From Balneola sp. EhC07 (GTDB lineage: Bacteria > Bacteroidota > Rhodothermia > Balneolales > Balneolaceae): a DNA stretch of 64,000 nucleotides. The stretch's first letter is position 1. Each line of letters opens with the position of its first letter. The position numbers and the translations under genes are program-made. The notes below the pieces were generated by a model. The model was not told where the DNA came from. It made no database searches and saw nothing but the letters and a program-made list of their open reading frames with translations. Location: positions 1-64,000 of the forward strand of contig NZ_LXYG01000018.1 of assembly GCF_001650905.1 (NCBI RefSeq). Reading direction: 5' to 3'. Below are positions 14,048-28,461 of this stretch, in pieces.

Positions 14048-14980
14048 ATGTCGCATACAATTTTAGTAATAGATGATGATGAACCAATTCACATCATGGC
14101 AAAGAGCTTGCTCGGAAAAGAATTTCAACTTGTTAATGCGAGAGATTCTCAAGAGGCTATAAATATACTATCTGAAACGCCGGTAAACTTAATTTTATCA
14201 GATATTCATATGCCCGGGTTATCCGGTTTGGAATTGTTGGAGTCTATCAGAGATGATAAAGAAAAGAGTAAGATTCCGGTCCTTATAATGACAAACCTTC
14301 CGACGGTTGAGAAGGAACAAAAAGCTTTAGACCTTGGAGCGGTTGATTTTATCAAAAAAGAGCGTTTCAATACAGATCGTGAAGGAGTTATTGAGTTGGT
14401 AAGAATGAAAATTCTAACCGATGTTAATGTAAAAGGATTGGATGAAGATCTTGAGAAAAGTAAGAATAAGCTTGTAATGAAATTGATGGAGTCAGCAATT
14501 AAAGGATCATTTACTGATACTGCTGAAACTTTTTGCTCTCACTTATCAGACATTCTAAATAGTGACCTTTTAACTTTCTTCGTTTTGGAAGATGGAGAAC
14601 CTAAACCGCTTATTGTTCACGGAGATAATAAACCATCAGATGCTGATTTCTCTACCTTTCAAAACTCGAACTCTTTCGATTTTCTAAATGCTAAAAAAGA
14701 ATCTTTTCTGAGCAACCATATTTATAATGAAGAATTCGGGTGTTTTCTTGATTTCTCCACAAAAAATGAAATGCCGGCAGAAATAGGAGTCCCTTTATTT
14801 TCAGCAAATGAAAAAGCAATGCTTATGAATAACCTGAGCGCTCCAACTGAATCAGAGCTTTTTGGAATGTTAATAATCAAGCGATCAAAACTATTTTCAA
14901 GTAAAGAATTCGAGTTAATTTCCAGATTAGTAACACAAACGGGAGCAATACTTTGGAGGCTTTACCAAAAAAATAAATGA
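14048..14980 (+). CDS. Response regulator REC-GAF
   Basis: 310 residues. The REC domain (about 1-125) has VIDDDEPI, acceptor Asp 52 in LSDIHMPG and Lys in KKERF. After a helical linker, residues about 145-305 form a GAF-like domain (DTAETFCSHLSDIL... GVPLFS... FGMLIIKRSK... FELISRLVTQTGAILWRL). No DNA-binding or enzymatic output follows, so it probably signals by binding a partner or ligand. Its GAF resembles in outline the second GAF of the HD protein five genes on. Its last four bases overlap the next gene (ATGA), tying it to synthesis of the glycosyltransferase. Confidence 0.85.
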   Translation: MSHTILVIDDDEPIHIMAKSLLGKEFQLVNARDSQEAINILSETPVNLILSDIHMPGLSGLELLESIRDDKEKSKIPVLIMTNLPTVEKEQKALDLGAVDFIKKERFNTDREGVIELVRMKILTDVNVKGLDEDLEKSKNKLVMKLMESAIKGSFTDTAETFCSHLSDILNSDLLTFFVLEDGEPKPLIVHGDNKPSDADFSTFQNSNSFDFLNAKKESFLSNHIYNEEFGCFLDFSTKNEMPAEIGVPLFSANEKAMLMNNLSAPTESELFGMLIIKRSKLFSSKEFELISRLVTQTGAILWRLYQKNK

Positions 14981-16164
14981 ACTCGAATAATACATCCATT
15001 TTGCTGATAATTGAAGGAACCTATCCCTGGTACAGAGGTGGAGTTAGTGAATGGGTCTATCAATATTTGAAAGAATTGGATAGTTATGATTTTCATATTC
15101 TCCAAGTAGCTACGGATGAATTTAAACAACTGGATCCTTATAACGCTCTTTATCCTATTACCGAAAATGTTAAGTCATTTACTCGTGTACAGCCACCTAC
15201 ATTGAAATCCGATTGGGAAACTACGAAAGAGACATGGTTTCAATCTATTGTTGAATCGGTGCCTGTTTATAAATATGACACCATCCATGTTACCAATACG
15301 GGTTTTGCAGGTTGGTTAGGTATCCGAATAGCTGATATTTTTAATGCCCCACTTGTATTAACTGAACACGCCTTGTATTGGAAAGAGGTAGAAAAGGGGG
15401 CAGTAGCTTTGGAATGTGGTTATCAAATACCGGATAATTTTGAAGCGAAATCAGAAATCGTAGATATTTTTAAAGAAATTGCATCTGAAGTCTATTCTTC
15501 GTCAGAAGAAGTAGTATCAGTTTCAAGGGTTAATATTCCTTACCAGAAAGAATTTGGAGCACATTCACCCAAATATATTCCCAACGGTGTCCCGGTTGAT
15601 CTATTAACTCCGAACAAGATCAGAAATGAAGCTCCTGTTATAGGATGGATAGGGAGATGTGCGGAAATGAAAAATCCAAAACTGTTCTTTGAGTTTGTGG
15701 AAGTGTTTCAAAGCAGGTCTTTGGATGCAAGCTTTATTATGATGCTAAGCGATGCAAATGAAAAAGAACTTGAACAGGAAGTGAGAGCATTGGCAAAAAA
15801 GTATCCTGAAGTGAACATGATCTGGAATGAACCAGCTCATCAGTATCTGCATCAGTTTGATATGCTTTGCATTACCAGCCATAATGAATCGCAACCTTTA
15901 GTTATGTTTGAAGCACTTTCAAATAAAGCTTTACCTATTGGCTGGGAAGTTGGGGATCTTACATCGGAATTTGGCTTTGTTGTCCCAACAGGGACTAGCA
16001 CCAACACTCTGGTTGATCAGGTAAGCGCTCTTTGGAGAGATTCATCAAAATTCAATGAGCTGACAGAAAGCAAATATGATCTGGTAGCTTATAATCATAC
16101 ATGGACTTCTATTTTTGAGAAGTACGACGAGCTTTTCCAAGAACTTTTAGTTGAAGATGCATAG
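14977..16164 (+). CDS. PelF-like glycosyltransferase paralogue (GT4)
   Basis: 395 residues. The N-terminus IIEGTYPWYRGGVSEWVYQY is very close to the PelF signature EGTYPYVRGGVSSW. The middle has VSRVNIPYQKEFGAHSPKYIPNGVPVDLL and the C-terminal donor domain VIGWIGRCAEMKNPKLFFEF, then ITSHNESQPLVMFEALSNKALPIG. The second half is shorter and more divergent than in canonical PelF, with ESQPLVMFEAL where the family has EGFP...IEAM. It may transfer a different sugar or act as a non-catalytic partner of the real PelF, whose gene overlaps it by one or two codons. It is cytoplasmic, in the Pel-like operon. Confidence 0.8.
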   Translation: MNSNNTSILLIIEGTYPWYRGGVSEWVYQYLKELDSYDFHILQVATDEFKQLDPYNALYPITENVKSFTRVQPPTLKSDWETTKETWFQSIVESVPVYKYDTIHVTNTGFAGWLGIRIADIFNAPLVLTEHALYWKEVEKGAVALECGYQIPDNFEAKSEIVDIFKEIASEVYSSSEEVVSVSRVNIPYQKEFGAHSPKYIPNGVPVDLLTPNKIRNEAPVIGWIGRCAEMKNPKLFFEFVEVFQSRSLDASFIMMLSDANEKELEQEVRALAKKYPEVNMIWNEPAHQYLHQFDMLCITSHNESQPLVMFEALSNKALPIGWEVGDLTSEFGFVVPTGTSTNTLVDQVSALWRDSSKFNELTESKYDLVAYNHTWTSIFEKYDELFQELLVEDA

Positions 16165-16166
16165 TG

Positions 16167-17756
16167 ATGGAAGAAGTAAAACCGGTTGTATTATTTGAAA
16201 CAGAAGGCTCTTATCCATTTAGTGGAGGAGGAGTAAGCACTTGGGCTCATATATTATGCACAGAGTTGCAGGAAGAAGTGGATTTTCATCTGATGGCAAT
16301 TACAGGTAATCCATTCGTGGAACCACGTTATAAACTTCCGAAGAATATAACAGATATTATACATATTCCGCTTTGGGGTGTTGAAGAACCGGTCCATTAT
16401 TTTGATAAAACAATTCCATTCTCAGGTCAAATTGAAAAAAAAGCCAGAACTACAAAAGAGGTAGTTAAACAGCATTTTCTTCCATTATTTAGAGATTTTA
16501 TTTCATGTCTGAATGATCCATTTCAGGATGTAGACAAGATCAGTGATGTCATATATGGATTCTGGAAATTTTTTCAATATTACGATTATAAAATAACCAT
16601 GAAAGAGCCCATGCTTTGGATAGTTTTCAAGGACTCGCTTCATGAAAACTATGTTGAAAACTATGATCCTGAGTTAGGAGATACCCCAAAGGTGATCGAT
16701 ATGACTTTTGGGATGAGGTGGTTGTACCATTTTTTAATGCCGATCGCATCTCCGATCCCAAAAGAAGTAAATATCTCTCATTCTACGTTAGCCGGCTTTC
16801 CGGCTTTAGCTTCTATTGCAGCTAAGTATGAATATGGTATTCCAAGTATGGTAACAGATCATGGAGTGTATATGCGGGAACGTCTTATCAATGTTGGTAG
16901 GTCTGATATGACTTTCTTTTCCAAAAAAATGCTTGTAGATCTCTCTACAATGGTAACAAGAGCTGTTTATCATACCGCTGATCAGATTTCACCTGTTACT
17001 ACGGCAAATCAGAAATGGGAAGAACGCTTTGAAGCTAAACCCGAGAATATTTTACCGATCTATAATGGTGTGGATACAGATCTTTTTAAACCTACACCAA
17101 AACCTACTAAAACTGAAGGTACACCAACGGTAATAGCAGTGGCTCAGGTTTTTCCGTTAAAAGATATCGAGACTATGATCCGTACTTGTGCAGTAGTAAG
17201 GAAAACAATTCCGAATGTACAATTTACGGTCTATGGCAGTTTGGATGTGGATACAGATTATGTTGAAACATGCAGAGAACTTATAAAAGAGCTTGATCTG
17301 GAGGATAATTTCACATTTGGAGGTTTTCATAACAATCCAAGTATGATCTTCAATGAAGGGGATATATCAATTCTAACTTCCATATCTGAAGGGTTTCCGT
17401 ATACCGTGATCGAATCTATGAGTTGTGGCCGACCTGTAGTTGCAACTGATGTAGGAGGAATAAAAGATGCTTTAGAAGGTTGTGGAATTCTTTGTAAGCC
17501 GCGTTCTCCGGAAGAGATTGCAGCGGGAGTAGTTCAGTTATTGGAGGATACAGACTTAAGAATTGAACTCGGTAATAAGTCTCGTGAGAAAGTACTTCTT
17601 AATTTTACTACAGACAGATCAGTTAAAAATTATCTTGAGTCTTATAAACAACTGGCCGCTAAGCCAAGAGAGCCTTTAAAAAATAAAGTGAAAACAGAGT
17701 CAGTATTAAACCTGCTTGAATATTTAAGGGTTAAGAGGTTCGCTCATGCAAACTGA
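16167..17756 (+). CDS. pelF: Pel polymerase glycosyltransferase PelF
   Basis: 529 residues from the ATG at 16167 (a GTG three bases earlier is possible). The N-terminal ETEGSYPFSGGGVSTWAHIL is the PelF hallmark, and the long linker (about 90-200) between it and SHSTLAGFPALASIAAKYEYG is also PelF-like. The donor-binding half carries NGVDTDLFKPTP, AVAQVFPLKDIETMIR and ISEGFPYTVIESMSCGRPVVATDVGG. In Pseudomonas PelF polymerises the amino-sugar chain in the cytoplasm from UDP-sugars. No membrane segment is present, so it should dock on PelG, whose gene overlaps its end by 11 bases. This is one of the two surest Pel assignments here. Confidence 0.9.
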   Translation: MEEVKPVVLFETEGSYPFSGGGVSTWAHILCTELQEEVDFHLMAITGNPFVEPRYKLPKNITDIIHIPLWGVEEPVHYFDKTIPFSGQIEKKARTTKEVVKQHFLPLFRDFISCLNDPFQDVDKISDVIYGFWKFFQYYDYKITMKEPMLWIVFKDSLHENYVENYDPELGDTPKVIDMTFGMRWLYHFLMPIASPIPKEVNISHSTLAGFPALASIAAKYEYGIPSMVTDHGVYMRERLINVGRSDMTFFSKKMLVDLSTMVTRAVYHTADQISPVTTANQKWEERFEAKPENILPIYNGVDTDLFKPTPKPTKTEGTPTVIAVAQVFPLKDIETMIRTCAVVRKTIPNVQFTVYGSLDVDTDYVETCRELIKELDLEDNFTFGGFHNNPSMIFNEGDISILTSISEGFPYTVIESMSCGRPVVATDVGGIKDALEGCGILCKPRSPEEIAAGVVQLLEDTDLRIELGNKSREKVLLNFTTDRSVKNYLESYKQLAAKPREPLKNKVKTESVLNLLEYLRVKRFAHAN

Positions 17757-19374
17757 AGAAAGAGATATTATTCTTGAAAAAGAAGATCTGTCAGTTATTG
17801 AAGAATTGACTCAGCAGGTTTATGACCTGATCGGAAATCCATTAAGTGTTTGGGCAGTGGCAGCTACCATTGAGTCGTTGGGAGTAAGAGATGTGGACGC
17901 AAATACCGATTATGGATTTAAGAGCGTTTTTGATTTAGCAGAGGAAGTATTTAAAAGGCTTAAAAAGCATATAAGGGGTAAGTATGAGGAAGAAAGTGAA
18001 TCAGAGTTTAAACTCGGTGATGTAGGAGAAAGTTTTAAACTCTTTTTCAAACATTTTGGAATGGGTGTGCTTTTTACCATGCCGATGATCTCTCAGATTG
18101 CAGCAATCATTATTTTTGAATACGCGCTATGGGCATGGTTTCGGTTTAATGTAGCTCAGGCAACCATGATAGCGATGGGAACTATAGGGGCCTTCATTAT
18201 TACCGGTGGTTTTATTCAGGTGCTCGGAAGGCTTGTTTCAAAATATATGGGGGAAACTAATTATTATTTAAGCTGGAAAGCTATTAAAGCAGTTATGTAT
18301 TTTGCCATTCCTCTTGTTTTGGGAATTGCTGCGCTTGTTTTTATAGTAAATGTAATTCTTCCTTTTTACCCTCAGAGAATGGTAACAATAGGGCTTACCT
18401 ATTTTATTCTGATCTCCAGTATGATGCTTTCGGCGGCCGTTTTGTATGCTTCTCAACAAAAATTGATCATTTTGGGGAGTATTTTAGCAGGTACATTGGC
18501 TGTAGCTTTTGGAATGGAAGTACTTGATTGGGGGATTTATTTATCACAATGGTTAGGAATCGGAATAACTACAGGATCTCAGATAATTTATATAATAATT
18601 TATTATCAGTATAAGATCAGATCTAACCGTCAGCGTCTGTTTAAACAATCTCTGCCGAATCTTGAGGTGAGTTACTATAATACTTACAGATATTTCTTGT
18701 ATGGTTTTGGATATTTTACTTTTCTGTTTGTTGACAGAATTTTGGCTTGGTCTGCCGGACCTCCGCCACCGCCGTATATCATCTGGTTCAACACTCCTTA
18801 TGAACTTGGGATGGATTGGGCGTTATTAAGCTTCATATTTACTATAGCGTTGCTGGAGTTTATTATTCATTTATTTTCACACAGGATTATACCTGCTCAA
18901 AAGAAAACGGAGATAAATAAGCTCAAGAAGTTCAATTTATACTTTAGCAATTTTTATTCCTTACAGTTGGTATTACTCTTTTTTGTTGGAATAATCTCCA
19001 TAGTGTTAACCTATTACGGAGTGGAGGCTTTAAGAGTATTTGAAGATGATTATCCGGAAATAAGGGATTTCTTTGCAAATCCACTAACCTTTAAAGTGTT
19101 TTGGATGGGAAGCATTGGTTACCTGTTTTTGGTTTTTGGATTACTAAATTCCCTATTCTTTTTTACAATGAATAGGCCGGAATTTGTACTTTATTCTATG
19201 CTTGCCGCATTAGCAGTTAATGCGATTACAGGTTATATATGTAGCAGAGTGATAGGATTTGAATATGCTGTAGTTGGTTTAGTAGCAGGTTCTATAACAT
19301 TTGCAGCTGTGACCGGATTGATCGGTAAAAGATTTTTTAAACATTTGGACTATTTTTATTACTCTGCATACTAA
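17746..19374 (+). CDS. pelG: Pel exporter PelG with N-terminal extension
   Basis: 542 residues with about twelve membrane helices from residue ~108 onward. It matches the MATE/MOP-like PelG transporter that moves the polymer across the inner membrane. Diagnostic is the stretch LFVDRILAWSAGPPPP followed by PYELGMDWALLSFIFTIALLEF, where PelG has FDKW..W....... YD.A.F.A.L..IP. Unlike the classical protein it carries about 100 soluble residues before the first helix, containing NPLSVWAVAATIESLGVRD and an acidic linker. That extension may dock cytoplasmic partners. The start overlaps pelF by 11 bases; the next gene follows after nine. Confidence 0.88.
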   Translation: MQTEERDIILEKEDLSVIEELTQQVYDLIGNPLSVWAVAATIESLGVRDVDANTDYGFKSVFDLAEEVFKRLKKHIRGKYEEESESEFKLGDVGESFKLFFKHFGMGVLFTMPMISQIAAIIIFEYALWAWFRFNVAQATMIAMGTIGAFIITGGFIQVLGRLVSKYMGETNYYLSWKAIKAVMYFAIPLVLGIAALVFIVNVILPFYPQRMVTIGLTYFILISSMMLSAAVLYASQQKLIILGSILAGTLAVAFGMEVLDWGIYLSQWLGIGITTGSQIIYIIIYYQYKIRSNRQRLFKQSLPNLEVSYYNTYRYFLYGFGYFTFLFVDRILAWSAGPPPPPYIIWFNTPYELGMDWALLSFIFTIALLEFIIHLFSHRIIPAQKKTEINKLKKFNLYFSNFYSLQLVLLFFVGIISIVLTYYGVEALRVFEDDYPEIRDFFANPLTFKVFWMGSIGYLFLVFGLLNSLFFFTMNRPEFVLYSMLAALAVNAITGYICSRVIGFEYAVVGLVAGSITFAAVTGLIGKRFFKHLDYFYYSAY

Positions 19375-19383
19375 GGACATCCT

Positions 19384-21006
19384 ATGAGTAAAGACGTAAA
19401 AGACTACATAAATATAATAGGAAGCAGGCTTGGAAAAGCCTTTGCAATAGATTCGTTTGGAACAGAAGAGGAGCTGGAGTTTTGGGCACTTTCTGCAGAG
19501 CATATGTCTCGTAAGCAAGATCCAACGTTTCAGAATATAATTACTTGGATAGATCTGTTGTATCAGGCCCCTGTTCACTTTGTGTATAAGTTGGATAAAG
19601 AGCATTTAATACTTATCAAACGACAACTAATTTCGGAAAATCTGCTACCTGAAAAACCCGGAGGAGGTAAGCCCGGGAAAGCAGACGCTCAAAGAACTCA
19701 GTTTATTCAGGATTTTGAAAATCAAATGCAGAATCTTGAGAAAAAGCGACAATGGGACGAAGACTTTAAAGAGCATGGTGTTTCAGCTCATACAATCGGT
19801 AATTGTGAACATATCCCACTTTACAAAAAGAACGGAGAATTTTGGGGGATCTATGTAATAGGGCCAAATATAAAAAGCCCTGAAAATATGGTTCCAAAAT
19901 TTTCAATTGTGAGTAGGTTGCTTTCTGCATGGTTGATAAAACTGGACGAGCAGGAAAAGAAATCACAGCTAAAATATCAGAAGGAAGTACACGGATTGGT
20001 TGGAGATTTAGGTACCGGTGCGTTAAATACCGAAGGAATTTCTGAGCTTTTGCTTCTTTACATCATAAATTCGTTTCATGGAAATTCCGGTGCTGTAATA
20101 GAATATAAAGGAGGAAGACCAGAACTGATAGCTTCAAATAATTTGGATGAGAGTTATTTGAAATCTTTACTGGGTTTATCAGGAGATATGATGTATTCAT
20201 TTTCAGATAACACCTTTTCGATTTCAGATCATGGGAAGAACCTTATAAGCCAGTTGAAAGTTAAACCTTTATTCCTGCCTTATATTACTGAACAGGTAAA
20301 GGGGTTTATTTGGATTAACAGAGTTGAAGCTAAAGAGGATGAAGAATCTAATCCGGTGCTTGAAGATATTTCTGAAATTGTTGCCAAGCTCTTTAAGTTC
20401 AGAGATGTAAATAAAGTATTTTCCGACGATCTTTTGGAAGCTTTTTATAAAATGCTCCGCGCTATTGAGGTAAAAAGAGAGAAAACTAAATATCATTCAC
20501 CAAGAATGATCGCTTTTGTTGAAATGTTCGGTATGCTTTTTGGATTGGATAACCATGAAATGGAGATCATTAAGACTACTGCAAAACTACATGATATCGG
20601 ATATGTAGGCGCGGCAGGAATAAGTTCTTTGGCGAGTATAGGTTCTGAACTGGCTCATCCAATTGCCGGTGCAACTATGATCAGTAATCTGCCTGTTCAT
20701 AATGATATTATTGAAGGCATTAAAACTCACCATGAATGGGTAAATGGGAAAGGTACTCCCAATGAGATCAGAGGGGAAGATATTCCGTGGACAGGTAAAA
20801 TTATATCCGTTTATGAATTTGTTGTAGACTTCTTTGAATCAAATCCTGATGTAGCTCCTGAAAAAGAAGATGAAATGTTGGAGAAGTTGAAATCCAACTT
20901 AATAGAGCGCGCGGATGTTCAATTTGATATGGTTTTAATCCCTACAGTTATTCAGCAACTAACCATGCTTGGTTGGTCAGGTTGTGCGCAATTAGGAGTT
21001 GAATAA
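19384..21006 (+). CDS. GAF-GAF-HD-GYP-like protein, PelD replacement candidate
   Basis: 540 residues, soluble. Residues about 100-190 form a GAF-like fold (HIPLYKKNGEFWGIYVIGPN), residues about 215-340 a second GAF. The C-terminal part is HD-GYP-like: His in KYHSPRM (~367), HDIG (~403), His in LAHPIAGA (~426), and HHEW (~449). The GYP signature is changed to GKGTP, Asp of DG.GYP is Asn, and the last metal Asp is Glu (VYEF). Most metal ligands thus survive. HD-GYP enzymes hydrolyse c-di-GMP. In classical pel operons this slot holds PelD, a GAF/degenerate-GGDEF receptor. AAGGA precedes the ATG. Confidence 0.82.
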   Translation: MSKDVKDYINIIGSRLGKAFAIDSFGTEEELEFWALSAEHMSRKQDPTFQNIITWIDLLYQAPVHFVYKLDKEHLILIKRQLISENLLPEKPGGGKPGKADAQRTQFIQDFENQMQNLEKKRQWDEDFKEHGVSAHTIGNCEHIPLYKKNGEFWGIYVIGPNIKSPENMVPKFSIVSRLLSAWLIKLDEQEKKSQLKYQKEVHGLVGDLGTGALNTEGISELLLLYIINSFHGNSGAVIEYKGGRPELIASNNLDESYLKSLLGLSGDMMYSFSDNTFSISDHGKNLISQLKVKPLFLPYITEQVKGFIWINRVEAKEDEESNPVLEDISEIVAKLFKFRDVNKVFSDDLLEAFYKMLRAIEVKREKTKYHSPRMIAFVEMFGMLFGLDNHEMEIIKTTAKLHDIGYVGAAGISSLASIGSELAHPIAGATMISNLPVHNDIIEGIKTHHEWVNGKGTPNEIRGEDIPWTGKIISVYEFVVDFFESNPDVAPEKEDEMLEKLKSNLIERADVQFDMVLIPTVIQQLTMLGWSGCAQLGVE

Positions 21007-21015
21007 GTTTCATTA

Positions 21016-21870
21016 ATGTATAAGAAGTTATCACTGATTATTATCTATTTGCTCACTGTAAATTGCATATCATCGAGTAATAAGCTGTCAGAAGATTCGA
21101 TCTATGACTCCTTTGGAGTTGTGTATTCTGATATTAATTCTACTGTGGTTTCCGGTTATAAACTGTTGATCGTAGAACCGTATTTTTACACCAAGCAAGA
21201 AATAAATGAATTTAATTCAAGAGGAATAAAGGTTGTAGCCTATCTTTCTTTGGGAGAAGTGAATGAATCACGAAGATATTTCAGTGAGTTCAAAGAGATC
21301 GGTTTAAAAGGAAAAAATGAAAACCATGGTTCGTACTTTGTTGACCTTTCGGAAGCAAGAGTAAAAGAAAAATTTGTTAATGAAATTGTTCCGGAGTTAC
21401 TTTCATATGGTTATGACGGTCTTTTTCTGGACACCATTGACGCTGTAGCTCCATATACGCTCAGAAGAAATATGGAACAGGATATGGTAGATTTGATATC
21501 CGGTATAAGATCCCGAAACCCTGATAAGTTGCTAATTCAAAATGCAGGTTTATTCCTGTTGGATAAAACAGCAGCTTATATTGATGCTGTGACGATTGAA
21601 GCTGTTGCTTCCGGTTATGATTTCACAAAAAATGAATATCAAATCAAACCGGTAGAAGAATACGAAGAGAGATTAGATCTTATAAATTCTTTGCATAGTA
21701 AATTCGGAACTCCATTTTTGATCATAGATTTTGCTGAAAATTATGAATCCTCCTTACAGGTTAAATCAAGGTTAGAAGATTCCGGTTACCCCTTTTTTAT
21801 CAGTAATATCGAATTCAGAGGTTTACCCGTATTGAGCGGAAAATCTAGAACATTAAAGAAAGGAGCTTAA
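21016..21870 (+). CDS. GH114 family hydrolase, stand-alone PelA-type hydrolase domain
   Basis: 284 residues. The N-terminus has a signal with a cysteine at about 17 (LLTVNCISSS), probably a lipoprotein. The TIM-barrel blocks of the TM1410/GH114 family are clear: LLIVEPYFYTKQEI, GIKVVAYLSLGEVNESRRYF, GYDGLFLDTIDAVAPYT, LLIQNAGLFLL and AVTIEAVASGYDF. GH114 enzymes cut alpha-1,4-polygalactosamine; PelA of Pseudomonas has such a domain fused to a deacetylase. Here it is separate. The acidic residues in GEVNE, LDTID and TIEA are the likely catalytic set. It lies nine bases after the HD gene and one base before the membrane protein. Confidence 0.85.
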   Translation: MYKKLSLIIIYLLTVNCISSSNKLSEDSIYDSFGVVYSDINSTVVSGYKLLIVEPYFYTKQEINEFNSRGIKVVAYLSLGEVNESRRYFSEFKEIGLKGKNENHGSYFVDLSEARVKEKFVNEIVPELLSYGYDGLFLDTIDAVAPYTLRRNMEQDMVDLISGIRSRNPDKLLIQNAGLFLLDKTAAYIDAVTIEAVASGYDFTKNEYQIKPVEEYEERLDLINSLHSKFGTPFLIIDFAENYESSLQVKSRLEDSGYPFFISNIEFRGLPVLSGKSRTLKKGA

Positions 21871-21871
21871 T

Positions 21872-23932
21872 ATGCCATATTGGTTAATTGTGTTTCTTTC
21901 TATTGCCCGGCTTGTACTCTTTTTTGTGATCTTGTTTTCATGGATAGGTCCTAAATTCCTTACTCATACCAAAAAGTTGCATGGAATTGATAAGATGCTT
22001 TACAGCTGGATCGGTATTGGGGGTACTATCATACTCACCATTTTTATTCTCACGATCCTGAATCTATATGACTTGATAAGCATTTTCACTGTTTTGGTTT
22101 TGATCCCGATTCTTATCGCTTTGTTTAAAGAATGGAGGAGTGGAACATCTATAACATCCATTTTTAAAGTTATAGAAAATAAGATAGTAGCAAATCAGGT
22201 AAGAGTAATCGAATCGATCAAAATTTTTACCTACAAGGGATTAAAGGATCGGTTTTCAAAGAAACGAGAGTTTTCTTTTTACGACAATAGATATAATATC
22301 GCTGCTATAACTATAGGTATCATATCTTGCATTGTCCGTGTTATTCCTGTTTTAAAAAATGCAGCACCTTACAGCAGGGCTTGGTATTTCGAGCTCGATG
22401 AAGTCAAAAATATCAGACTCCAGGAATATTTTAGTGAATTACCAATACCAAAAGGGATGCATTCTTTGGTTGGTATGTTTAGCAATCTTACACAAGTAGG
22501 ACCGGAGCTCACCCTTAGCTTGCTTGGGAGTTTAACCAGTTTTCTTTTGACGATTATAATTTTTTGGTTGATAAGGGAAATTACAAAGGGTAAACGATTA
22601 ACTGCCGCCTTATTTGGTGCCAGTGTCTTTGCTCTCATCCCTACATTGTTACTACCAATAAGTCTTGAAGCTGAAACCGGTATTAATACAATTTTATTGG
22701 CGCTTTGTTTTGCTCTGCCAACTGCTTTTATCTTTGTTCGAAACCTCAGGTCGGTTGACAAGGCGCCATGGTTTTATGTGACTATGGGAATTATCGCAAC
22801 AGCCCTTACTGATATATTTGTTCTTTTAGTAGTGTTATTACCTTTTTTGATATATGGATTATTAGCCATTCCTAGAAAGCGGTTTGGTATTAATTTCCTT
22901 AAAGTAGTTGCCTACTTGGTTATTGTCTTTTCAGTTTCGTTAAGTCCATATATTATCCATTTAATAATAATGGGATTGGATATTAATTCATTTTTTGAGT
23001 CACAGCTGTTAGACACTCTTATATTCAGTTATTTTCCATACTTAATTACAGATATAGAAGCCCTGAGTTCGATGTACCTTTATATAACGGGGGGCTTATT
23101 CATCGTTTTTTTGATTCTTCATTTAGTTCAAAAAAAGAAACGCTTTGCGGATGAATTAGTTTATTTTGCAATGTTCGGATCTATGGCTTTTCTGTATTCT
23201 TCTCATAATAATCTTAGTATTTCATTTATTGATTTAGATCAGCTCAATGCTTTTTATGCAATTCTCATTTCTGTTTTATGTGGACTGGTCTTTTATGCTA
23301 TATATACATTAATAGAAGTGGTAATGAATATAAAACATCGTTCTGTACGCTATAGCCAACCAATCTTAATGGTGTTATTAGTGACGGGTGGGTTATTCCT
23401 TTCAGGAGGGGTGAATACCGGCAAAACATTACCACAAACACTGCCGAATGGTTTTTTTGAATCTTACTATAGAATAATCAATGAAAGGCTTCCTTTTACT
23501 TATGCCACAGTAAGCCCACCCATTGATAATGCATTGTCCAAGAACAGACATTATTTTATGAATTATGATTTTTTCATGGAAAACTATGGGAATATAGATT
23601 CACTGTATCAGGAGTATCTTGAGCTACCCAAAGAACTAAGACCGGATACTGCGAATATTCCACCTGCAAGTATATTTGTTTTTATACAAAAACCACCTTA
23701 TGAGTCTATACAGCAAGGGATCTTGTTTGAACCGGGCGAGCAGATGCAAGCTCTAAGTGATTGGATATCTAAATATAATTCATTGCCCGGTAGAGAAGTT
23801 TTGGTGTATAAAGAAACAGAGGATGCTGTTGTCTATGAGATAATAAATCAGAAAGACGGATCTAACATAGGTGATATTTTGATGAATATTTACCCAAAAG
23901 AGGAAGGGCGTGCAGCTAAGCTATTTAAATAA
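21872..23932 (+). CDS. Polytopic GT-C-like membrane protein, role in Pel-like locus unknown
   Basis: 686 residues with about thirteen membrane helices: two clusters at 1-85 and 145-510. A large loop containing AWYFELDEVKNIRLQEYF and LPIPKGMHSLVGMF lies between early helices, and a C-terminal soluble domain of about 160 residues follows. The acidic residue in the first loop and the R.....L..P.G.H spacing recall GT-C glycosyltransferases, which use lipid-linked sugars outside the inner membrane. Classical pel operons have no such protein; PelE, a TPR membrane protein, is not similar. It may modify the polymer or be an unrelated membrane scaffold. Its last 23 bases overlap the fusion gene. Confidence 0.7.
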   Translation: MPYWLIVFLSIARLVLFFVILFSWIGPKFLTHTKKLHGIDKMLYSWIGIGGTIILTIFILTILNLYDLISIFTVLVLIPILIALFKEWRSGTSITSIFKVIENKIVANQVRVIESIKIFTYKGLKDRFSKKREFSFYDNRYNIAAITIGIISCIVRVIPVLKNAAPYSRAWYFELDEVKNIRLQEYFSELPIPKGMHSLVGMFSNLTQVGPELTLSLLGSLTSFLLTIIIFWLIREITKGKRLTAALFGASVFALIPTLLLPISLEAETGINTILLALCFALPTAFIFVRNLRSVDKAPWFYVTMGIIATALTDIFVLLVVLLPFLIYGLLAIPRKRFGINFLKVVAYLVIVFSVSLSPYIIHLIIMGLDINSFFESQLLDTLIFSYFPYLITDIEALSSMYLYITGGLFIVFLILHLVQKKKRFADELVYFAMFGSMAFLYSSHNNLSISFIDLDQLNAFYAILISVLCGLVFYAIYTLIEVVMNIKHRSVRYSQPILMVLLVTGGLFLSGGVNTGKTLPQTLPNGFFESYYRIINERLPFTYATVSPPIDNALSKNRHYFMNYDFFMENYGNIDSLYQEYLELPKELRPDTANIPPASIFVFIQKPPYESIQQGILFEPGEQMQALSDWISKYNSLPGREVLVYKETEDAVVYEIINQKDGSNIGDILMNIYPKEEGRAAKLFK

Positions 23933-26900
23933 ATACTTACTTAGTTCATTACTATTTTTTGGATTAATGGTTTTAAATAAACCGTTAAATGCACAAAATG
24001 AAATAGCTCCTATTATAATTCTGCAGAGTTCGACCGATGAATTTTCTGTTGAAGTTACCAACGAGTTGATTGAGGGATTTAAATATCCTGAATTCAAATA
24101 TGAAATTGTAGATCTGGATAAATCCAAAAATATTCCAATAGATAAAAAAACCAATCTTCTTATCAATACCAGTACCAATATAACTTCAATAAATGATAAA
24201 GAGTTAAACAAGATCATTGATTATTTAGGTAAAGGTGGTAAAATGATCTTTTTTGGTACTGTAACAGATGAAAGGTTTGCATATATCCAAGGAATCAAGG
24301 CAGGAGCAGATTATAATATTGATCAGACAGTTCGTGGAATTAAGGGAGTTGAAAATATATTCCCTGGTTATAAAGGAATGGAATTTTATTCAAACTTCAG
24401 TGTTCCTCATAACCGCTTAAAAAAGAGTAGTTTTATTGATCAAATCAGAGTGCTGGCAACAGCAGTAACCGATGAAGATTATCCTATTCTTTTTGAGAAT
24501 AATATTGGTCTTGGTACTGTATTAGTGTTTAACAGTTATGTACTGTATGAAAAAGACTACAGAGGACTGATGTTTTCGTCGGTAATTAAAATGTTACCTC
24601 ATTTACCATACCGAAATGCAAATGTAGGTACTATTTTTCTGGATGATTTTCCTGCTCCGCTTTATAATACTAAGTTAGAACCTATTGCTACAGAATACGA
24701 TGTAGAGCAAGCAGACTTTGTTGCAAATATTTGGTGGCCTGATATGCAAAGACTTGCTGATTCTTTGCTAATCACATATTCTGCGATGACAGCTTTTAAC
24801 TATAATGCAAATATAGTACCTCCATTCGATTACATAGAGTGGACATCTGCAACAATCAGAAGAAAGAACAAGCTCGTTAATGCAAGTGTTTATCTGGCAC
24901 AGGAAATTGCTGAATCAAGACATGAGTTAGCCTTTCATGGCTATAATCACTTTTCTTTATTGAATGAAGAATGGAATTCAAATTCATCGTTCATGGAATC
25001 GGCATTAAATTCGGTAAAAAAGAGATGGAGAGTTGATGATCTTGGACAGCTTCCTATAACTTATGTTCCTCCAACCAATTATATAGATTCAACCGGAATA
25101 CAGGCTTTAACAAGAGCAATGCCGTCTATAAAAGTGCTTAGTTCTCTTTATCTGGGAGAAAAGGAATATGGTGGAGAAAGAGGTTTTGGTCCCGACCCAT
25201 ATTCAGATAAATTATTTAATTATCCAAGGATATCCAGTGGTTTTAATATAGAAGGGAATTCAGTTTTTAATCAGCATAGTATGCAACTACTAACAGGGGT
25301 TTGGAACCATTTTGTACACCCAGATGATGTATTTCAAGTTGTACAGCGAGATGCTGATGCGTTTGAAAGCAGAAACCCTGATAATCTCGGATGGAGATCT
25401 ACCCCGGACACAACCACTTCACTATATCAGGAGTTTCTTAAAAGATTAAGCCATACAAAGAAACAGTATCCATTTTTACGTTTGGTTTCTGCTGATTATG
25501 GAGCAAACATAGCTCAGGATTGGTTGAATGCAGATTCTGAATATTTGGAAACGGATGATCAATATCTGGTGAACGTAACACCACCTGATGCTTATAAATC
25601 CGCAAGTGAGGACAAGGACGAAAAGTATTGGTTTATGTATGTCCCAAGGGAAGATCGGGCTGATATTGAGAAGCATTTAAGTAAGATCGTAGACGGATAT
25701 ACTTTTTCCAGAATTTGGGATGGTTATCTTTTTCAATTTTATTCAAAAAAAAACTTGATAAATATTCCCAAACCAAAATCCTATAATAGAACTTCAAGGC
25801 AAATACAATCTGGTTTGGCATTAGCAAATAACAGGTTTAATAGCTATCTGAGCAATCCATTTTATTTAGCCACATCATCCGTAACTGTTGAGCCTGAAAT
25901 TACCTTAGAGGAACAACTTTCGGATGCGATAAACAGATATTTACGAAATCCTAAAAACATTCAGGCTCAGGAAGAGTTAATCGAGCTTAGTATCGAAAAT
26001 GATGAGGCTATGCGTGCTATTCAAATTCTTGAATTCAGGTTAAAGTCTAACCCTGATTGGCAAAAAAGTGACATAGATCGGTTAGTTACTTACTATGGAT
26101 TTGAATCCGCTTATACAAGGGCAGAGAATTTTCTGGAAGAGCTTTGGAGAAAATATGGTGATGAGAAGGTTATTCTTTTAAAAAACAGAATAGCTGAACA
26201 GCTTGGTTTGTATTCACCTGAATTTGTAAAGAGATGGAGACTTAGAGAAATTGAAGTTTATGGCGAAACCAATGAAACAGTTTTAGCTTATGTAAATGCT
26301 GTTGAAAGTGTTGAAACCTGGCCGGAGATAAAACAAAGGCTAAGAAGTCTGATAAATAACGATCCACGAAATGACAGCTTGTATGCATATACAATTCAGA
26401 GATCATTTTATTATGAAGCAGCAGATAGTACCATTGCGCTACTGGAAGAGTTTCCTGAATGGTCTCATAGTCAGTTAAATGAATTTGCAGGGCAATTTGC
26501 TAACATATATGGTTATCAGCTTTTTGATTACGATAAAGCTTTGTATTGGGCAGAACGATCGGATAATATCTCAAACCGAACTAAGTTAGAATGGATAGCT
26601 CAGCAAAATGAACTGGATCAATTCTATGCCATCAGTAAGGATTATTTACAGAATAACCCCGGTAACGATTCCTTAAGAGTGTTTGCAGGTACAACTCTCT
26701 ATTATCTTGGATTTAAAGAAAGAGGATATGAAATCATGTATCCATTATTCGGTAAAGGAAAAAGTACAGAAACCGAAGCTCACCAGTTAATCGAAGAAGA
26801 ATTTAAATTTATTACTTATAAAGACAAGAAAAATCTTTTCAGAAGATACCCGAACTTCTTTTCAGAGAAAGAAGAAGAGATATTTAAAACTGATCTAAGA

Positions 26901-27797
26901 TGGAATGAAGGAGTAAGAACATCTTTGTTTGGTGAATACTTCTCTGACAATTTTGATAATCAATCTGCCAGAGGAGGCTTGTCGGTACAATTCGGGAACA
27001 GGTTGGATGTATCTCACTTATTTAAATTGGAAGATATTTATGTAAATGACAGAGTTGGGAATCAAAATTTCTTTTCAAATTTTACAGGTATTGGATATGA
27101 ATTCGAGAATAGAAAAGAAGATTATAGCCGTGTCTTCAGGTTTGGCCCTTCTGTATTTTATGGAGCAGAAGGTGTTTTAGCAGAAGCGTTTGTTTCCTAT
27201 TCAATAAGCTATGATTCTACATTTACTACGCTCAACTTGTCGATTGAACCTGAGTTTACCCGCCAGGCTATTGTTCAGGATATCTATAAGCTGAAGGGTG
27301 AATTCTATAGAGAAGATCCATGGTTAAAAAATAAATTTCTGACAACGGTGTCCGGATCCGGTCAGGTTTATACAAATGAAGTATTCGATTATTCTATAAC
27401 AGGGAGAGGATACCTTCAACCTTGGGGAACTCCTTTCAGAGGAAGATTGATCGGTGAGTTAGGCTGGCAGGATGCTTCAAAAAGTTTCCCGAATGCAGAA
27501 CCATTTTTTACTCAGGATAACTATTTACTAAAAGGTTTAGGTTTTGACTTGAGATATCGAAACCCTAACGATTTTAGCTATGATTCTTTGTTTGAATTGG
27601 AATTAATGGGAAAACATGCTTCAAGGGATGGCTACTTTTTAACCGGCAGGGCAAACGTAGAACATAAGTTCAAAAAGTTCTGGCAGATAAAAGTGGGTAC
27701 TGAGTTTTCAACTAGTTCTGTATATCAGTCAAACAGAATATTTTTTACCATTTCTCATTTTTTTAAATACAATCTAAAACGCACCGAACAAAAATAA
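23910..27797 (+). CDS. Fusion of PelA-type deacetylase, TPR-like superhelix and PelB-type outer-membrane barrel
   Basis: 1295 residues. A signal peptide (1-29, ending NAQ) leads to a Rossmann-like domain (~30-230). The polysaccharide deacetylase region (~235-640, DUF2194-like) has VGTIFLDDFPAP with an Asp pair near 245 and LAFHGYNH with an H-x3-H pair (343, 347), the metal site expected of PelA-type deacetylases. Residues ~660-995 are helical TPR-like repeats. Residues ~1000-1295 alternate as outer-membrane strands and end in TISHFFKYNLK. PelB normally carries the TPR and barrel parts; here deacetylase and pore are one chain. The GTG start has AGGAAGG upstream. Confidence 0.85.
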   Translation: MQLSYLNKYLLSSLLFFGLMVLNKPLNAQNEIAPIIILQSSTDEFSVEVTNELIEGFKYPEFKYEIVDLDKSKNIPIDKKTNLLINTSTNITSINDKELNKIIDYLGKGGKMIFFGTVTDERFAYIQGIKAGADYNIDQTVRGIKGVENIFPGYKGMEFYSNFSVPHNRLKKSSFIDQIRVLATAVTDEDYPILFENNIGLGTVLVFNSYVLYEKDYRGLMFSSVIKMLPHLPYRNANVGTIFLDDFPAPLYNTKLEPIATEYDVEQADFVANIWWPDMQRLADSLLITYSAMTAFNYNANIVPPFDYIEWTSATIRRKNKLVNASVYLAQEIAESRHELAFHGYNHFSLLNEEWNSNSSFMESALNSVKKRWRVDDLGQLPITYVPPTNYIDSTGIQALTRAMPSIKVLSSLYLGEKEYGGERGFGPDPYSDKLFNYPRISSGFNIEGNSVFNQHSMQLLTGVWNHFVHPDDVFQVVQRDADAFESRNPDNLGWRSTPDTTTSLYQEFLKRLSHTKKQYPFLRLVSADYGANIAQDWLNADSEYLETDDQYLVNVTPPDAYKSASEDKDEKYWFMYVPREDRADIEKHLSKIVDGYTFSRIWDGYLFQFYSKKNLINIPKPKSYNRTSRQIQSGLALANNRFNSYLSNPFYLATSSVTVEPEITLEEQLSDAINRYLRNPKNIQAQEELIELSIENDEAMRAIQILEFRLKSNPDWQKSDIDRLVTYYGFESAYTRAENFLEELWRKYGDEKVILLKNRIAEQLGLYSPEFVKRWRLREIEVYGETNETVLAYVNAVESVETWPEIKQRLRSLINNDPRNDSLYAYTIQRSFYYEAADSTIALLEEFPEWSHSQLNEFAGQFANIYGYQLFDYDKALYWAERSDNISNRTKLEWIAQQNELDQFYAISKDYLQNNPGNDSLRVFAGTTLYYLGFKERGYEIMYPLFGKGKSTETEAHQLIEEEFKFITYKDKKNLFRRYPNFFSEKEEEIFKTDLRWNEGVRTSLFGEYFSDNFDNQSARGGLSVQFGNRLDVSHLFKLEDIYVNDRVGNQNFFSNFTGIGYEFENRKEDYSRVFRFGPSVFYGAEGVLAEAFVSYSISYDSTFTTLNLSIEPEFTRQAIVQDIYKLKGEFYREDPWLKNKFLTTVSGSGQVYTNEVFDYSITGRGYLQPWGTPFRGRLIGELGWQDASKSFPNAEPFFTQDNYLLKGLGFDLRYRNPNDFSYDSLFELELMGKHASRDGYFLTGRANVEHKFKKFWQIKVGTEFSTSSVYQSNRIFFTISHFFKYNLKRTEQK

Positions 27798-27818: not shown

Positions 27819-28136
27819 ATGAAAAAAATCAGACCTCATATTGAGTGGGTAGCATTTACTACAGGTTTAGTTCTTATGGCTACTATGGATCCTTTAAGTA
27901 CGGGTTCTTCATTATGTTTTTTTGAGTTTATTGGAATCGAATTTTGTCCGGGAGAGGGGTTGGGACATTCCATAGCATGGTTGTTCAGAGGCGAATTTAA
28001 TAATGCGGTAAATGCGAATCTTTTTGGTATTCCGGCCGTACTCATTTTGAGTTTGAGAATTCTACAGATCTGGAAAGATCTTTATATAAATAAAACTACT
28101 ACACAAACAGGACAAACAGATGGCAGAAGTTTATGA
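27819..28136 (+). CDS. DUF2752 membrane protein
   Basis: 105 residues, with two membrane helices (about 9-25 and 68-86). The DUF2752 motif is present as GIEFCPGEGLGHSIAWLFRGEFNNAVNANLFGIP, where the family usually shows G..CP.CG.TR....L..G....A...N. The first cysteine of the pair is kept (CPG) but the second position is Glu, so the usual CPxCG cluster is lost. The function of the family is not known. It lies 21 bases after the fusion gene and overlaps the TM2 gene by 17 bases, so it belongs to the same operon. Confidence 0.85.
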   Translation: MKKIRPHIEWVAFTTGLVLMATMDPLSTGSSLCFFEFIGIEFCPGEGLGHSIAWLFRGEFNNAVNANLFGIPAVLILSLRILQIWKDLYINKTTTQTGQTDGRSL

Positions 28137-28461
28137 TTTTATACCTGAAGCAGAAGGAGATGAAGCACTTTATTTGGCTAAACTTCTAACTTCACTAGAT
28201 GATGAGAATAAAAAAAGATTCTCTAATGTATACAGATCCAGAAGAAAAGACCCACAGACTATTCTAGTACTTTGTCTTTTAGGATTTGTAGGTCTTGCAG
28301 GAGTACACAGATTTATATTAAATCAGATAGGAATGGGAATTTTATACTTCTTTACTGCAGGTCTTTGTTTTATTGGAGTGATCGTTGATCTGGTCAACTA
28401 TAAGGATCTCACTTTTCAATATAACAGAAAGGTTGCTCAGGAAGTCAGATCCCTTTTATAG
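28120..28461 (+). CDS. TM2-domain protein
   Basis: 113 residues. A short cytoplasmic N-terminus is followed by the TM2 domain: two membrane helices with the conserved short turn (LCLLGFVGLAGVHRFIL, GMGILYFFTAGLCFIGVIVDL). The GVHRFIL...G.GIL.....G..GI..L..D pattern is diagnostic. TM2 proteins are small membrane proteins of unclear role. Its stop overlaps the stop of the convergent DUF5777 gene by six bases, so the operon ends in a tail-to-tail overlap without a visible terminator. It is the last gene of the Pel-like run. Confidence 0.85.
   Translation: MAEVYDFIPEAEGDEALYLAKLLTSLDDENKKRFSNVYRSRRKDPQTILVLCLLGFVGLAGVHRFILNQIGMGILYFFTAGLCFIGVIVDLVNYKDLTFQYNRKVAQEVRSLL

Follow-up and report, generated by a model that had tools for sequence, protein, structure and literature searches.

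A predicted single-chain polysaccharide deacetylase and outer-membrane exporter in Pel-type operons of Balneolota and Bacteroidota

INTRODUCTION

Can the enzyme that deacetylates an exopolysaccharide and the pore that carries the polymer across the outer membrane reside in one polypeptide? In Pseudomonas, PelA supplies both the Pel deacetylase and the hydrolase (families CE21 and GH166) and binds the tetratricopeptide repeats (TPRs) of the separate exporter PelB (PMC12022489); how the two proteins coordinate deacetylation with export is a standing question. The question is raised by an open reading frame (ORF) of Balneola sp. EhC07, located at 23910-27797 (+ strand) of a 64,000-nt stretch of contig NZ_LXYG01000018.1, referred to below as the window. 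A first-pass annotation of the letters alone had read this ORF as one 1295-residue chain with a signal peptide, a Rossmann-like domain, a deacetylase, helical repeats and a barrel. We analysed the ORF, its homologues and its operon, and conclude, with a probability of about 0.8, that it encodes a single-chain deacetylation and export unit of a Pel-type exopolysaccharide system. We base it on the structure of the gene and its homology, on the catalytic residues and the predicted fold, and on operon structure, synteny and conservation across the phylum.

RESULTS

Domain layout of the fusion protein

The ORF starts with GTG and encodes 1295 amino acids (aa) without internal stops. Together with AlphaFold2 (AF2) models, the intact frame bears out the layout proposed at first pass. 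The features are as follows; residue numbers here and below are those of the 1295-aa protein.

23910-27797, + strand: fusion protein, 1295 aa (signal peptide, CBM114-like domain, CE26-like deacetylase, small alpha/beta domain, TPR-type helices, predicted 16-strand barrel)
23910-23996, + strand: signal peptide, signal peptidase I-like (..NKPLNAQ; sequence)
23997-24614, + strand: CBM114-like domain, named by domain order (sequence match to 9ZAU, AF2, fold search)
24615-25532, + strand: CE26-like deacetylase domain, residues 236-541 (Pfam, PDB sequence match, AF2, conservation)
24642-24647, + strand: D245 D246, putative catalytic base and metal ligand, equivalent to PelADA D262 and D263 (alignment, PMC13254593)
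24936-24950, + strand: H343-G-Y-N-H347, HxxxH metal-binding motif (alignment, conservation)
25227-25229, + strand: R440, putative base-activating arginine, equivalent to PelADA R458 (alignment, PMC13254593)
25308-25328, + strand: H467-F-V-H470-P-D472-D473, putative catalytic acid motif, equivalent to PelADA H488, D490 and D491 (alignment, PMC13254593)
25533-25769, + strand: small alpha/beta domain between deacetylase and TPRs, residues 542-620 (AF2)
25794-26909, + strand: TPR-type helical repeats, residues 629-1000 (AF2, weak TPR matches)
26916-27761, + strand: predicted 16-stranded beta-barrel, residues 1003-1284 (AF2, Foldseek)

A lipobox-type Cys closes the signal peptide in about 78 of 85 homologues (74 found by pattern and 4 by eye). 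In the window protein and those most closely related to it, the signal peptide is a plain one without a lipobox. Judging from these sequences, a lipid anchor seems usual among the fusion homologues but dispensable.

The N-terminal half resembles the Bacillus cereus Pel deacetylase

DUF2194 (PF09960) spans residues 25-556 of the protein (Pfam, E 2.2e-71). The only PDB sequence match of the N-terminal half is 9ZAU (phmmer E 3e-41; E 6e-72 over chain residues 35-530 with a 67-sequence profile), the Pel de-N-acetylase PelADA of B. cereus, which founded families CE26 and CBM114 and deacetylates alpha-1,4-linked N-acetylgalactosamine (GalNAc) (PMC13254593). The residues assigned in PelADA (base D262, metal ligand D263, the HxxxH motif, R458, and acid H488 with D490/D491; PMC13254593) align with D245, D246, H343/H347, R440, H470, D472 and D473 of the fusion, and every one of these is invariant among 75 non-redundant homologues. 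The aspartate pair (245-246) and the H-x3-H motif (HGYNH, 343-347) thus lie where the first-pass annotation had put them, and the deacetylase fold that it expected between residues 235 and 640 was found at 236-541 with all catalytic motif residues present.

An AF2 model of residues 28-860 (mean predicted local distance difference test score, pLDDT, 91.3) shows an alpha/beta N-terminal domain, a deacetylase and helical repeats. Its Foldseek matches in the PDB include heparan sulfate N-deacetylase, Helicobacter pylori peptidoglycan deacetylase and ThuA-like folds, which agrees with a deacetylase joined to an alpha/beta/alpha domain. 9ZAU was not among the Foldseek matches; that fold library presumably ends in April 2026, and 9ZAU is covered by the sequence search. 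A profile search of PDB chains returned no PelA chain at E-values up to 10, although PelA 9cgy was present in the set. By sequence relationship, the deacetylase is of the PelADA type (CE26) and not of the Pseudomonas PelA type (CE21). The earlier comparison with PelA and PelB therefore stands in so far as a deacetylase and a PelB-like exporter share one chain, and fails as to the family of the deacetylase. A literal PelA-PelB fusion is ruled out by the CE26-like deacetylase and by the hydrolase, which is a separate gene (see below).

The C-terminal half is predicted to be a TPR-barrel exporter

The AF2 model of residues 556-1295 (66 homologues, mean pLDDT 88.9) contains about 20 TPR-type helices, which end near residue 1000, and then exactly 16 strands, all within 1003-1284. 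When the model was compared with the PDB using Foldseek, the five best folds were BcsC (9b8a, 9b8h and 6tzk), PgaA (4y25) and PelB (9h80), with E-values from 5e-14 to 1e-10 (1.3e-10 for PelB; for PgaA, a template modelling score of 0.70 by target length). Consensus TPRs and ordinary porins ranked behind these exporters, at 2e-7 or worse. A 16-strand barrel is common to PelB, BcsC and PgaA (PMC12141448). The barrel that had been suggested for residues 1000-1295 is consequently predicted with confidence, and its fold matches polysaccharide exporters. The C-terminal half is thus predicted to be a TPR-barrel exporter of the PelB/BcsC/PgaA kind, which would place it in the outer membrane. The TPR part is acidic (net charge about -17 for residues 666-1000) and would thus be suited to a cationic polymer.

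DUF2194 proteins of the phylum are fusions

The closest named relatives of the protein (94-96% identity) are found in Balneola metagenome-assembled genomes (MAGs), and the gene is present in seven of the eight genomes of the window's genus, the window's own included. Among 394 genomes sampled across the phylum, 26 gave full DUF2194 matches, all 26 in open frames of 1268-1349 aa. With the C-terminal half alone as query, the same sample gave 25 strong matches, every one in those same DUF2194 frames; no standalone copy of this half was found there, the next match (2e-9) being TPR-type sequence only. The 26th deacetylase genome, G275 (locus L044), which lacks a strong C-terminal match, encodes a highly divergent protein that yet aligns over its full length. 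One scan of named GTDB genomes gave 373 relatives, of which the best 80 were taken as detailed loci (76 complete, 4 cut by a contig end); all 76 complete copies are fusions, of 1264-1586 aa, from Balneolota and Bacteroidota. A total of 85 complete homologues, the most distant at 21% identity, share this architecture. We conclude that this genome is no exception and that the fused form is the norm throughout the phylum. Some homologues are extended at the C terminus: a 1649-aa fusion (L059:4051-9000, - strand) has about 350 extra residues past the barrel, including a SPOR domain, and the 1586-aa protein of Fodinibius sediminis (L078) has a long extension with no Pfam match.

Standalone DUF2194 proteins were found in Cetobacterium (609 aa) and apparently in Fusobacterium. 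The Cetobacterium copy adjoins PelF, PelG and a hydrolase. This pel operon of a diderm member of the Fusobacteriota (L154:6723-15957) has a standalone CE26-type deacetylase with no evident outer-membrane exporter gene beside it. In a tree of deacetylase domains (unrooted, with few standalone sequences), one fully supported branch splits the fusions from the two standalone copies, a topology consistent with a single fusion event.

The fusion lies in a Pel-type operon

The run of genes begins at 14977, and the fusion ORF is the seventh in it. The genes that precede it are:

14977-16164, + strand: second, shorter PelF-like glycosyltransferase (DUF3492 and GT4; Pfam, under the PelF cut-off)
16164-17756, + strand: PelF glycosyltransferase (NF038011, 150 bits against a cut-off of 100)
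17746-19374, + strand: PelG-like inner-membrane exporter (PF16933 in 5 of 12 homologues, best 3.5e-8)
19384-21006, + strand: protein with a partly degenerate HD-GYP-like domain (Pfam, motifs)
21016-21870, + strand: separate PelA-type hydrolase, a GH114/GH166-like lipoprotein (PelA 9cgy and 5tcb, E 1e-32)
21872-23932, + strand: 686-aa membrane protein, conserved partner (synteny)

We assign the fusion to a Pel-type system because PelF, a PelG-like protein and a PelA-type hydrolase are encoded in the same operon. The window copy of the PelG-like protein itself gave no PF16933 match. The core order PelF, PelG, hydrolase, membrane protein, fusion is kept in Flavobacteriaceae, Roseivirga and Balneolaceae. 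No separate deacetylase, PelB or PelC gene was seen in the operon. The gene for the 686-aa protein overlaps the start of the fusion by 23 bases at its 3' end. This multi-span protein has a conserved C-terminal domain (LPNGFFxAYY..IPPASIFVFIEKPPY) and precedes the fusion in every operon examined; it is a candidate replacement for PelE, or a candidate link between PelG and the fusion.

Further genes and irregularities were noted around these operons. At 27819-28461 of the window the fusion is followed by genes for two small proteins (DUF2752 and TM2 domain), which are present in most Balneolaceae operons but not elsewhere. A second protein with a GH114-like C-terminal part is encoded upstream of pelF at L045:12152-13147 (- strand), and proteins of similar size occupy the same place in L046 and L047. 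At L053:14874-18689 a second, broken pel-type set (membrane protein, hydrolase, PelG and PelF fragments) adjoins an intact operon as a decaying duplicate. L062:7416-11218 has a PelG of 435 aa and a hydrolase split in two frames in an otherwise intact operon, possibly through frameshifts or sequencing errors. Finally, a contig labelled Bifidobacterium breve (L121) carries a Flavobacteriaceae-type operon and is very likely a mislabelled or contaminated MAG.

Regulation by cyclic di-GMP is unlikely

The genome has no GGDEF domain, in a search that was positive in 8 of 14 control genomes. It is therefore unlikely that cyclic di-GMP (c-di-GMP) exerts control by way of PelD here as it does in Pseudomonas and B. 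cereus. A search for PelD with PF16963 gave no match, but no positive control matched either. The HD-GYP-like gene is present in Balneolaceae operons and a few others. Compared with the reference motifs HDIGK and GYP, its product keeps the HD and HHE motifs and has HDIGY and GTP (HHEWVNGKGTP) in their place. It may be a sensor of something other than c-di-GMP, or a non-catalytic stand-in for PelD.

DISCUSSION

By analogy with work on PelADA and on PelA-PelB, a polymer made by PelF would cross the inner membrane via PelG and meet the periplasmic N-terminal half of the fusion, where the CBM114-like domain would hold it while the CE26-like domain removes some of its N-acetyl groups. The product, presumably partly deacetylated alpha-1,4-GalNAc and now positively charged, would then run along the acidic TPR superhelix and exit by the chain's own 16-strand barrel, so that deacetylation would be coupled to export. 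In Pseudomonas, binding of PelA to TPRs 9-14 of PelB increases deacetylation and decreases hydrolysis (PMC12022489). An encounter of this type would be built into the fusion chain, with the hydrolase kept as a separate protein.

That two neighbouring genes were joined by an assembly or sequencing error, or that the ORF arose by chance, is excluded by the 85 complete homologues: the same order and a similar length recur in isolates and MAGs of many genera, and we put the odds of an artefact at practically nil. It could also be supposed that the chain is only a precursor and is cleaved once secreted, leaving deacetylase and barrel to work as separate proteins, as in Pseudomonas. AF2 confidence is low around residues 645-663, and a flexible link there could be cut; however, only about 13 residues are of low confidence, no protease gene was seen in the operon, and the halves are never encoded separately in the 26 deacetylase-positive genomes of the phylum sample or the 76 complete named loci, which makes cleavage improbable. 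The fixed stoichiometry of deacetylase and exporter envisaged at first pass follows from the single chain only if that chain stays uncleaved. Still less probable is that the barrel serves only as an outer-membrane anchor for the deacetylase while the polymer exits by another route. The lipobox-type Cys of most homologues does make the protein look strongly membrane-attached, but lipid alone would suffice as an anchor, the best folds for the TPR superhelix and its 16 strands are known TPR-barrel polysaccharide exporters, and the operon encodes no other outer-membrane exporter.

A single-chain deacetylase-exporter could also follow the same logic on an amino-sugar polymer other than Pel. Such a substrate is suggested by the two PelF-like glycosyltransferases of Balneolaceae and by the 686-aa membrane protein, which matches no known family. 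On the other hand, PelF scores over its curated equivalog cut-off, the partner hydrolase is closest to the alpha-1,4-GalNAc hydrolase domain of PelA, and the founding CE26 enzyme acts on that same polymer (PMC13254593). We consider another polymer unlikely, if worth keeping in mind.

Several observations weigh against a Pel deacetylation and export unit as proposed here. A C-terminal profile searched against PDB sequences found generic TPR proteins and the TPR region of BcsC only, with no match to PelB, and Pfam gave weak TPR matches in a minority of homologues. Since sequence profiles detect TPR motifs only, the relation to PelB rests on fold. The minimal operons lack a PelC-like or PelE-like gene, though PelC is essential in P. 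aeruginosa: in the Flavobacteriaceae and Roseivirga loci L045-L047 and L050, no unassigned ORF of at least 90 aa lies between pelF and the fusion (PelC was not searched genome-wide). The 686-aa protein has no match in Pfam, NCBIfam or the PDB, and no report of Pel production by these bacteria was found in the literature searched.

The single-chain unit can be set beside several known systems. PelADA shares with its N-terminal half the same domains in the same order and all named catalytic residues, but ends near residue 610 with a transmembrane helix in the cytoplasmic membrane, whereas the fusion has about 675 more residues (TPRs and the predicted outer-membrane barrel). PelB (9H80) likewise consists of a TPR superhelix followed by a 16-strand barrel, predicted in the fusion; it is a separate and much larger protein with more TPRs that works with a PelC ring. 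BcsC and PgaA, the best fold matches, are TPR-barrel exporters of cellulose and poly-N-acetylglucosamine, respectively, neither of which contains an enzyme domain. Zymomonas BcsZC does combine a polymer-modifying enzyme and its outer-membrane exporter in a fusion; it differs in that the enzyme is a cellulose hydrolase of another pathway, and it is reported in few species (PMC7112194). The portions of this fusion-seeking operon survey available to us report BcsZC and BcsAB and mention no pel fusion (PMC7112194). The Cetobacterium operon has the same deacetylase family beside PelF, PelG and a PelA-type hydrolase; with its unfused enzyme from another diderm phylum, it offers an unfused comparison system.

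The first-pass annotation knew of no description of this domain order, and we found no published deacetylase-exporter fusion in pel systems in the literature searched, which excluded preprints and most subscription papers. Each part is of a known kind; that literature does not describe a single chain with the order CBM-deacetylase-TPR-barrel, nor that this order is fixed throughout the phylum and accompanied by a separate PelA-type hydrolase. The finding brings the Gram-positive type of CE26 deacetylase into diderm bacteria and, with 373 related loci in one scan, widens the range of pel-type operons to many Bacteroidota and Balneolota; it also gives a likely role to the C-terminal ~650 residues of a large group of DUF2194 proteins. 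Because the fusion ties both activities in one chain, a single molecule would suffice for solving the geometry, and severing the tether would show whether coupling matters. Tentatively, and at somewhat less than even odds, a whole phylum-level lineage may run Pel biosynthesis with one protein, reaching from periplasm to outer membrane, in place of both the PelA deacetylase and PelB; no PelC ring and, in Balneola at least, no c-di-GMP would be involved, and the polymer would go straight from active site to pore inside a single molecule.

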